64,000 nucleotides of DNA from Mesoplasma syrphidae (lineage in GTDB: Bacteria > Bacillota_I > Bacilli_A > Mycoplasmatales > Mycoplasmataceae), in assembly GCF_002843565.1 (NCBI RefSeq), contig NZ_CP025257.1, forward strand, positions 62,001-126,000, in the 5' to 3' direction. The position numbers were made by a program, and so were the translations under genes. This document shows positions 52,558 to 62,081 of this stretch, in pieces; position 1 is the stretch's first letter, and each line of letters begins with the position of its first letter. Below the pieces are notes generated by a model. The model was not told the origin of the DNA, did no database searches, and was given only the letters and a program-made list of their open reading frames with translations.

Positions 52558-52839
52558 ATGCCAAAAAAAGATATTCAACCAAAATACTTCGAAGAAGCAA
52601 AATTTGTTTGTACAACTTGTGATAACGAATTTGTTTGTGGAACTGTAAGAGGAGAAGAAGTAAGAATTGATGTATGTTCAAACTGTCACTCATTCTATAC
52701 AGGAAACCAATCATTTGCAAATAATGCTGGACGTGTTGAACAATTTAAATCTAAATTTGCTCGTAAAGAAGCTATTAAAGCAACAGTTGAAAAAGAATCT
52801 GAAGCGCAAAAAGCTCAAAATTCTAAATCAGCCAAGTAG
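52558..52839 (+). CDS. rpmE: 50S ribosomal protein L31
   Basis: The 93-aa ribosomal protein has two Cys pairs (FVCTTCDNEF and DVCSNCHSFYTG), the zinc-binding C-plus form. The N-terminus MPKKDIQPKY is standard. A Lys/Ala/Glu-rich tail of about 25 residues extends past the usual end. The RBS AAAGGAGA is strong, and a terminator follows. Confidence 0.96.
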   Translation: MPKKDIQPKYFEEAKFVCTTCDNEFVCGTVRGEEVRIDVCSNCHSFYTGNQSFANNAGRVEQFKSKFARKEAIKATVEKESEAQKAQNSKSAK

Positions 52840-52854
52840 TTTTATAATTTAATT

Positions 52855-52884
52855 TAAAAGACCTTTTCGGGTCTTTTATTTTTG
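52855..52884 (+). terminator. Intrinsic terminator after rpmE
   Basis: AAAAGACC pairs with GGGTCTTTT around TTTTC, followed by ATTTTTG. Confidence 0.9.
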
Positions 52885-52938
52885 TTTATAAAAAAATCAT
52901 TTAAAATATATATTAGATATTTTATGGAGGAGTAATAT

Positions 52939-54816
52939 ATGTCATACAAAATTGAAAATGTTACTTTTGCCAATAAAGTAGCAGATTTGGATAAAGTTAA
53001 TTTACACGCTCAGCCAGGTAAGACAACTAATATTCTAATTTATAACAAAAATCAAATGTCTTTTATGAAACGAGTTTTAAAGGGGCAAGAAAAAAATCGT
53101 AGTGGTCGTTTTCAAGTTAACAACATTGATATTATTAATAAGAAGTTTGTAAAAAATCGTATCGAGTTTATTCGCAATGATACTTGAATTGAAAGAGTTA
53201 TACCTGCTAAACTTGTATTATTTCTGTCATTATTATTTGACCCAAAGTTTTTACGAAAAGCTAGAATCAAAACAATTGATAAAAAGCATGACTATTTATC
53301 ATTTATTAATTCAAAAAATGATGTTACTGACATGCGATTGCGTCGCAAAATTGACTCAGTAATTTCACACTTTATTGATACAACAAATATTGCTGAGAAT
53401 AAATTATTGAATAAGTTTAATTCTGAAATATACAAATATGACGTTTCAAAAATCAAACAGCTGTATTCAAAATTTCCTCCTCAAGTTGGAGTTTTGGCTA
53501 AAGAAATTTCGCGTATTGAAGCAATGCTTGAAAAGAGCCAAGCAATGCTAACTTTTTCACAAGTTTTATGAGATAACATTTTTGCATTAAACGAGCTTAG
53601 AGATTCATGTACATGTGAGTATAATGCCAAAAAGTCATCAAATAAGTATGTTCGTAAGTATTGGAAAAAGTTTTCATATACTCAGACCAAATATATGATA
53701 ATTAAACAGTTAAAATTTTTGAACTTTAATTTATCAGAATTGCGTTATAGTATTTGAAGAAATAAAAAGTTACATAAGCAGTTAACTAGACAATTTAATC
53801 TTGAGCTTAAAAAATTTTATGAGATTGAAAATATTTCTAAAGAATCACAAATAGAAGTTGCTGAGCAACATCTTAAATGAAAACGTGTGGTCTTAGATCA
53901 ACGTAAAGAGTTTGAAGAGCAACAAAAGGAAATTTTGTTTCAATTGCTGCCTTCTGAAGGTTATATGATTGGTAAAAAGATTACTTTTTTGATTCATGAT
54001 TATCATAAAAAGTTGCTGAGTGGTAATGTTAAATATGGGAATCAAAATGAATTTTTGATTTTAAAAAAACACTACAAAAAGGAAATTCACTCAACGTTTT
54101 CTCAAGCCCTTGAATGAACAGAACAACACTTGGAAAAACTCGACATGAAATTTGATTGATTTATTAAGCAAGGATTTAAGATTTCTTCTTTGAACATTAT
54201 TTACTTAAAAATTTTGAAAGCCATTAATTTACAGAAAAAGAATATCGTATTTTCAAACATCTTAGACTACTTAAGTCAAAAGGATTTTCATGATTTAATG
54301 AATACTATTCAGAAAATTCAAAAAGTTTATCCAGACTTAGCATTTATTACTTTAAATAATAGTCTAGAAACAATTTGGGATTTGCAAGAGCCAATTTATT
54401 CAGTAGAAAAAAATGAGCTAAAAAAAATGACAGGCTCAGAAATCTTTGAAATTAATGCAAACCACATTTTTTCAAAAGTTCATAATTCTTCAAATGTTTT
54501 AAATTATCGCAAAGTTCGTCAAGGAATTGAAGTTGAAAATAAGTATTGAAATATTACCGACTGATCATTAAATGATAAGGGAAAAATTTTTGTCAATCTT
54601 TTTAAAGTCAATTTGGAGCCATCATCAGATCGCGATGATGAATTACCAATTGTTCTAAAAATTATTAAACAAAATAAATATAATGATCCAAGAGTCTATT
54701 TGGGATTTAATAAATTCAAGCATTTCATCTTTTTCTACGATGAGCAAGGTGAATATCTTGAGAATAAAGAAGTAATTGTCTATATCAATCGAGAATCAAT
54801 TAGTAAAATAATATAA
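52939..54816 (+). CDS. Degenerate ABC-ATPase-like protein with a large insertion
   Basis: The frame codes for 625 aa. The N-terminus aligns by eye with an ABC nucleotide-binding domain (KIENVTF, LDKVNLHAQPGK, then a SGRFQVNNIDI strand), but the Walker A position reads IYNKNQMSF (34-42), so the P-loop glycines are gone and the Lys is Met40. About 390 residues of Lys-rich helical sequence follow. Then IVFSNILDYLS (about 436-446) sits where Walker B should be, with Asp and Glu replaced by Ser and Asn, and FITLNN replaces the H-loop FITH. The last 90 residues end in VIVYINRESISKI, resembling a TOBE-like beta domain. Mollicute PotA ATPases also carry a long insertion near here, so a dead PotA-like paralogue is my best guess. 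The RBS TGGAGGAG is strong and no stop interrupts it. Confidence 0.72.
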
Positions 54817-54834: not shown

Positions 54835-55782
54835 ATGAATAAACATGCAGCAAAATTGCTATTAAAAAAAATTAAAGAACATCAGAATATTATTATCGTT
54901 AAGCATAAAATGCCCGACTGAGATGCTCAAGGAAGTGCTTTGGGAATGGCTAATATTATCGCAGAAAATTTTAAAAATAAAAATGTTTTTGTAGTTGGAG
55001 AGCGCTTAACTAAGGACGAAACATTTTTGCCAGAAACATCACTAACAGATGAATTTGTTAGTCAAGCGTTAATTATTACAGTTGATACTGGAAATAAAGC
55101 AAGACTAGACTTTGATCGCTTTGATATGGCAAGAGAGTCATTTAAAGTAGATCACCATTTAAATGTTGATCCCTATGCAACAAATGACATTGTTGTTGAA
55201 GATGCAATTGCCTGTACGCAAGTTGTCGTATTATGAGCGCAGTTAATGAAACTAAAAATAAATAAAACGGCAGCCCATAATTTATATCTGGGCTTAATTA
55301 CTGATTCTGGAAGATTCTTATTTCCCAGAACAGACGAAGTAACTTTTAGAGTAGCGGCTTCTTTAATTGAAGCTGGAGCAGACTTAAAGGCAGCTCACGA
55401 TTTCATATTTGTATCAAGTTTAAAAATGCGTAAATGAACTAACTTTGCTTTTAGCAAACTACAATTAACTAAACATGGAGTTGGTTATATCGTAATTACA
55501 AAAGCAGATCAAGATGGTTGAGGTTTAGAATATTCAGAGGTTAAATCAGCATTAGGAACAATGGCTGGAATGGATGAAATTAAAATATGAGCCTTAGTAG
55601 TTGAGTTAGATGATATGATTAAGGTTTCTTTGCGAAGCCGAGACTTTAGTGTTAATGAAGTCGCAGAAAAATTTGAAGGTGGAGGGCATAGATTGGCAAG
55701 CGGTGCCCAATTATCTTCACTAACAGATGTTTCAAAATTAGTAAAAGCTTTAGATAAGCTTATTGTAAAAGGAGAAAAATAA
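54835..55782 (+). CDS. nrnA: DHH/DHHA1 phosphoesterase (NrnA-like)
   Basis: The 315-aa manganese-dependent phosphoesterase is expected to degrade short oligoribonucleotides and/or pAp or pApA. The N-terminal DHH domain has KHKMPDWDAQGSALG (metal Asp), IITVDTGNKAR and the DHH triplet in FKVDHHLNVD. The C-terminal DHHA1 domain has KFEGGGHRLASGA, the GGGH-x3-AG substrate loop. The RBS TAGGAGA is good. tdk begins one base after its stop. Confidence 0.94.
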
Positions 55783-61163: not shown

Positions 61164-62081
61164 ATGAACTCTTATGAATTAATTTATGATTTTAAAGAAA
61201 ATAAGCACTATAATAACGAATTATACAATATTATTAAAAAATCGCCAAAATCTTATTTTGAAGATTGAATGCTGAAAGGGCACTGGGATGAAAATTATTA
61301 TCCAATTGCTTTAATCAATGAAAAAAATGATATTGTAGCAGCAGTATGTATTATTAGACTTAACTTGTCAATTAACGAAGTTAAATGCAATGCAATTCAA
61401 GTGGGACGAATTTTTATTCGTGATGGCTACGAAAAAGATGAGGTCGATAAAAAGCTTTTAAATCTTGTTGCTGAAAAGTATTCAAATGTATCTGATTTGA
61501 TTTACTCTTTTAGTGATTCTGAAACTGATGCACTATTTTATAATAGCGAATTTCAGAAAATCCAAGAATTTATTTATTATATTCCTTGAAACTCATCATT
61601 TGAAACTGAAAAGACCGCTATCAAAAAACTTGATACCGATTCAGTTAAGGACATTGAATTTATTCAAGATCATATCAAACATGCAACTAAGACTCCATCA
61701 GTAATTGCAAGTAATGGAGATTCAAGCGTGAAACTTTATAATATATTAAAATTTTATCGACGTAATGTATATTACATCTCTGAAATTGATGCGGTGGTCG
61801 TTTTTACGATTAATCAAGTCAAAAAGCGTTTTACATTAGTGGCGATTTATTCATCGAACAAAATTGATATTATGGATCTCTTAAAAATTTTAGTTCCTGA
61901 TGGAATTGAAAGAATTGAATTTATGTTTATCCCAAATTTAAGTTGTGGAGTTAATATCCGTAGATTATCTTTTATTGAAACACCTGAGGGTAATGTTCCT
62001 TCATATTTGTATATGAAAGAAATTACAACTGCTCTTGCAGGTAAAAGAATATTTTTCCCTGTTTTGGGAAGAGGAAAATAA
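61164..62081 (+). CDS. GNAT-fold acetyltransferase-like protein, unknown substrate
   Basis: The 305-aa cytoplasmic protein has a first half with GNAT-like order: a strand with AAVCIIRLNL, then AIQVGRIFIRDGYEKDEV followed by a helix (DKKLLNLVAEKYSN), then DLIYSFSDSETDALFYNSEF, recalling the acetyl-CoA region and the end strand of two-domain acetyltransferases. The R/Q-x-x-G-x-G/A loop is only partial. The second half (about 170-305) is mixed alpha/beta and unrecognised. It is monocistronic, with its own promoter and terminator. Confidence 0.6.

Follow-up and report, generated by a model that had tools for sequence, protein, structure and literature searches.

The gene between rpmE and an nrnA-like gene in the window (the whole stretch of DNA analyzed; 64,000 nucleotides, positions 62001–126000 of a genome of 908,214 bases) encodes a protein that, judging from profile matches and a predicted structure, has the fold of an ABC ATPase, with its strands and helices in the two-lobe arrangement. 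By its sequence, the same protein lacks the features that define an ABC ATPase as an enzyme, namely the P-loop, the LSGGQ signature, and the Walker B Asp with the catalytic Glu. Nearly all Mesoplasma/Spiroplasma-type bacteria carry the gene in one copy, as does the synthetic minimal cell, judging from gene order. Its actual relatives are active sugar-importer ATPases of the CUT1/MalK type, in which a homologous helical insertion occupies the corresponding site. The reading that we favor, and consider somewhat probable, is that this ancient pseudo-ATPase has been reused as an ATP-free, basic, metal-stapled adaptor or scaffold.

For the minimal cell JCVI-syn3.0, rpmE, ytqI/nrnA, and thymidine kinase have been listed as genes 0137, 0139, and 0140, respectively (PMC6609329). 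The gene order 0137-0139-0140 identifies the orthologue in this cell as MMSYN1_0138 (Mycoplasma mycoides). MMSYN1_0138 and the window gene are the same by numbering and order, a link based on order and the published description rather than on sequence. An unconserved ATP site was noted for MMSYN1_0138 in 2019 (PMC6609329), such that the dead ATPase is already known for the minimal cell from one sentence. The passage on this gene in PMC6609329 does not mention its subfamily, the insertion, a metal site, or how widely it is conserved. In the main texts of the literature searched, we found no mention of the MalK-type ancestry, the homologous insertion, the order-wide synteny, the single loss, or the candidate metal site. 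With these results, one of the minimal cell's unknown genes can be described concretely, as an ancient and core pseudo-ATPase whose ancestor can be traced and whose candidate metal site can be tested. It is unusual for a stand-alone ABC protein to lose its ATP chemistry altogether while selection on it stays very strong, which raises the question of what use an ABC fold has without ATP.

The coding sequence is a single open frame of 625 codons in which eight TGA codons are read as Trp (Table 1). The nrnA-like gene starts 18 bases after its end and is followed by tdk, prfA, and prmC. The presence of a terminator-like hairpin between rpmE and the pseudo-ATPase gene suggests that the latter has its own transcript with nrnA-tdk-prfA-prmC.

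Table 1. Features of the pseudo-ATPase gene, its product, and its neighbors, in coordinates of the window; residue numbers refer to the encoded protein.
Feature	Position	Strand	Basis
rpmE (L31), conserved upstream neighbor	52558..52839	+	ORF, loci comparison
Terminator-like hairpin 3' of rpmE	52855..52878	+	consensus match only
Ribosome-binding site GGAGGAG, just 5' of ATG	52926..52932	+	sequence
Pseudo-ATPase gene, 625 aa, code 4	52939..54816	+	ORF, model
NBD, N-terminal half (residues 1-101)	52939..53241	+	profile matches, model
Walker A equivalent IYNKNQMSF (34-42), for GPSGCGKST; no Gly, catalytic Lys replaced by M40	53038..53064	+	hhalign, orthologue columns
Q-loop equivalent, Gln replaced by N80	53176..53178	+	hhalign, orthologue columns
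Helical insertion (about residues 102-385)	53242..54093	+	hhalign, models, insertion profiles
D212, invariant (WD / LFD motif)	53572..53574	+	alignment
C224-x-C226, invariant candidate metal ligands; the protein has no other cysteine	53608..53616	+	alignment
H353-D-Y-H356; H356 invariant	53995..54006	+	alignment
NBD, C-terminal half (residues 386-515)	54094..54483	+	profile matches, model
Signature equivalent ISSLN (415-419), for LSGGQ	54181..54195	+	hhalign, motif count
Walker B equivalent (434-440); Asp replaced by S439, catalytic Glu by N440	54238..54258	+	hhalign
H-loop equivalent, His replaced by N473	54355..54357	+	hhalign, orthologue columns
C-terminal beta domain, MalK/TOBE-like (residues 516-625)	54484..54813	+	profile matches, model
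nrnA-like DHH phosphoesterase, conserved downstream neighbor	54835..55782	+	ORF, loci comparison

For the fold, a Pfam search with the window protein gave no match, and the NCBIfam matches were weak, of ABC type only, and restricted to residues 1–86. A profile of 34 orthologues (alignment A1) matches solved ABC ATPases in two stretches (residues 3–95 and 396–565), with the ModC chain 3d31 as the best match. The AlphaFold model of the window protein (mean pLDDT 89, pTM 0.77), when searched with Foldseek and VIA-align, is matched by MalK/CysA/PotA-type ATPases over ranges that cover the NBD and the C-terminal domain. The top structural match is 9bcr_D, a MalK-type NBD+TOBE chain (Z 18.9, 326 residues, rmsd 8.3). 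Because the profile matches, the model, and the structural matches agree, the NBD+TOBE fold is confirmed. An earlier note on this DNA had recognized an ABC NBD and a TOBE-like end from the letters of the window protein, and both assignments are borne out, the former by profile matches in both halves and a model closest to MalK-type chains, and the latter by the profile matches and by a model that resembles MalK-type NBD+TOBE chains. E. coli MalK and other MalK-type ATPases (PDB 9bcr and 2awo) share this NBD and TOBE-type architecture, but they are active and lack the long helical insertion of the window protein.

Equivalents of the catalytic motifs were assigned by hhalign to the active paralogue. 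The earlier claim that every catalytic motif has been replaced holds for the window protein itself, but some orthologues keep a Lys, Asp, or His in single columns. Among the 34 orthologues, the Walker A column has Lys in nine, the Walker B column has Asp in six, and the H-loop column has His in five; the Walker A column varies freely. The loss of the H-loop His also stands, although the equivalent residue is N473 and the Leu named earlier is the adjacent L472. At the level of whole motifs, neither the P-loop ([AG]xxxxGK[ST]) nor the signature ([LIVFM]SGG[QEM]) is present in any of the 39 family members, whereas all 16 active paralogues have both, and none of the 39 has Glu at the catalytic column. 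The motif losses are thus common to the orthologues, including the most distant ones in family f5, which are also dead.

The large insertion reported earlier is present, but it comprises about 285 residues (about 102–386) rather than about 390, i.e., about 100 fewer. A carbohydrate-type ATPase of the same genome (L058:2930-4834) carries an insertion at the site corresponding to that of the window protein, and its entire length can be aligned to this protein. This ATPase gene adjoins genes for an 825-residue lipoprotein and two permeases. In profile-profile comparison, the dead family and the active sugar ATPases match with 99.5% probability over the full length (E 3e-22) and with 81% for the insertions alone (E 1e-5). 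With f5 members added, the match between the insertions alone rises to 93.7–94.6% (E 2e-7 to 7e-8), and reversed and column-shuffled controls reach at most 0.3%. BLASTP between single insertion sequences gives E values down to 3e-7, and in the model of the active paralogue, the helices follow one another as they do in the insertion of the window protein and are similarly long. A quick maximum-likelihood tree has a single branch with full SH-aLRT support that parts all dead from active forms. If the root is on the active side, as expected, this branch indicates one ancestral loss of the ATP motifs. Taken together, the mollicute insertion-type CUT1/MalK-like sugar ATPases share the fold, the insertion site, a homologous insertion, and its helix order with the window protein. 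However, they keep the P-loop, LSGGQ, and Asp-Glu that the window protein does not have, and lack the conserved CxC and HxYH of the dead family. The earlier note had instead related the insertion site and TOBE-like end to mollicute PotA. This link does not hold, since the PotA of the same genome (L059) lacks an insertion and can be aligned over no more than 69 columns. The region around the active paralogue (L058:453-7324; G000:C1:189.4-196.3 kb, outside the window) is a sugar ABC importer operon in which the ATPase insertion has about 270 residues; a PDB sequence search with this insertion returned chance-level helical proteins only.

Within the insertion, C224, C226, H356, and D212 are invariant as judged in alignment A4, in which W314 and Y355 are nearly invariant. 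Most of the invariant residues of the protein are in this part. The Asp that matches D212 is also invariant in the insertion of the active paralogues, and D212 may therefore be ancestral. H353 is present in the aligned members of f1. Its absence is restricted to members in which another Cys or His adjoins the CxC: those of f5 carry CxCxC and those of g20 carry CxCHxxH. Such a ligand swap, which is based on two lineages (f5 and g20), is expected of a metal site that requires four ligands but tolerates a shift of the fourth. The conservation and the ligand swap fit a candidate metal site, CxC...H(xx)H, that may have been gained in the insertion. In the secondary structure of the model, the first long hairpin ends at the CxC, and the second has the HxYH close to its end; from these positions, the candidate site could pin both hairpins at their base.

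In a sample of 298 genomes of the window's order, each of the 60 that belong to the window's family (f1) has one copy of the pseudo-ATPase gene, which is also found in five genomes of family f9 and nine of family f5. Other families in this sample have partial ABC matches only. In a class-wide search, full-length relatives are confined to the window's order, and the other listed matches are mostly to C-terminal parts of ordinary ABC ATPases. The order rpmE-X-nrnA-tdk, with the pseudo-ATPase gene as X, is kept in loci of all three families (f1, f9, and f5), and single neighbors that went undetected are attributable to a short locus or a weak match. In the loci read from all lineages, this order is found instead of any linkage to genes for a permease or a binding protein. 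In one locus (L040, genome G019), rpmE is on the strand opposite to the pseudo-ATPase gene, unlike in the other loci read. The f5 orthologues (L101, L102, L103, L105, and L107) have about 25 extra N-terminal residues ahead of the NBD.

The pseudo-ATPase is under strong purifying selection. Of the named relatives, Mesoplasma seiffertii is the nearest one found, with an orthologue identity of 94–96%. In comparison with this species, dN/dS is 0.018 overall (dS 1.4), 0.014 in the insertion, and 0.033 in the C-terminal MalK-like domain, and the C-terminal part of the NBD is left without a rating because dS is saturated. The value for prfA (0.022) is about as low, and the insertion of the active ATPase has a dN/dS of 0.127 in a similar comparison.

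Several explanations compete with the favored one. The gene could be decaying, or its sequence could be an artifact, and frameshifted copies in two genomes of genus g8 in family f1 (L108 in G178 and L109 in G199), which may reflect loss or assembly error, are what such an explanation can point to. With frames open in 58 of the 60 genomes of the same family and a dN/dS as low as that of prfA, a pseudogene or sequencing error is ruled out for practical purposes; the conclusion drawn earlier from the intact frame and its strong ribosome site, that this is not a pseudogene, was right. It is very improbable, too, that the protein is active after all and binds or hydrolyzes nucleotide via an unrecognized, rebuilt site. 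The Asp or His that some members keep in the Walker B and H-loop columns would fit such a site, but all 39 members lack P-loop, LSGGQ, and catalytic Glu, and the Walker A column is free to vary.

Two other explanations retain a link to sugar uptake. In one, the protein would be a non-catalytic NBD subunit that pairs with an active sugar-type ATPase to form an asymmetric importer with one dead NBD. NBDs with degenerate sites in type I ABC exporters form half of a transporter and still bind ATP, whereas in the window protein the P-loop is gone and no transporter gene lies near its gene. Such degenerate nucleotide-binding sites (PMC7756269) offer a precedent for an ABC NBD that has lost catalytic residues. 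The fold and the TOBE domain are those of an importer ATPase, and all 24 of the 298 genomes in which an insertion-type active ATPase was detected also carry the dead gene (the 25th match of the active-ATPase profile is the dead gene itself). However, 41 of the 60 genomes of the same family have the dead gene and no detected insertion-type active ATPase; since the profile misses divergent copies, this absence is no proof. The genes next to the dead gene in the loci read, rpmE and nrnA instead of permeases, also speak against an importer subunit, which we regard as unlikely. The other explanation, which we find harder still to accept, draws on an analogy with E. coli MalK, which binds MalT and EIIA-Glc. 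By this analogy, the protein would be a regulatory remnant of MalK, with the TOBE/regulatory part binding a transcription factor or PTS protein and controlling carbon uptake. The C-terminal MalK-like domain has indeed been retained, but it is less constrained than the insertion, where most of the invariant residues are found.

The adaptor or scaffold that we favor would have evolved from a CUT1/MalK-type importer ATPase that already had the mollicute helical insertion between the Q-loop and the signature. The motifs for nucleotide binding and hydrolysis would have been lost in one ancestor, before the split of the three families, and the insertion would have gained the putative CxC...H(xx)H site in the same ancestor. 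The NBD+TOBE core may now serve as the rigid platform of a cytosolic protein that works without ATP, from which two long helical hairpins (about residues 129–223 and 248–361) would project, held together close to their base by a zinc-like C2H2 site. A strongly basic surface could bind an acidic partner, with nucleic acid, the ribosome, or the membrane as the most plausible candidates. The net charge of the window protein is +33, and among the 46 large ORFs of the window, none encodes a protein that is more basic per residue; the median net charge of the dead family is +31 (range +3 to +47) versus +16 for the active paralogues. The high basic charge favors an ATP-free adaptor that would contact an acidic partner through its helical arms and basic surface, but net charge by itself is weak evidence for the kind of partner, and the conserved neighbors in translation and nucleotide metabolism do not prove a shared function. 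The earlier note had suggested that a dead ATPase could be a structural or regulatory partner or a scaffold, and the protein may have such a role. A more specific version of our proposal, which we offer only tentatively, is that a sugar-importer ATPase was converted a single time into a helical-arm protein, strongly basic, zinc-stapled, and independent of ATP, that does housekeeping work in the RNA, ribosome, or chromosome biology of Mycoplasmatales. If true, this would explain one unknown gene retained in the minimal cell. The arm of ABC-F proteins and the coiled coil of Rad50, which bears a zinc hook, likewise extend as helical insertions from the helical portion of an ABC NBD, and provide a lead. 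Both ABC-F proteins and Rad50 are active ATPases, however, and the candidate metal site of the window protein is predicted at the base of the hairpins rather than at the tip.
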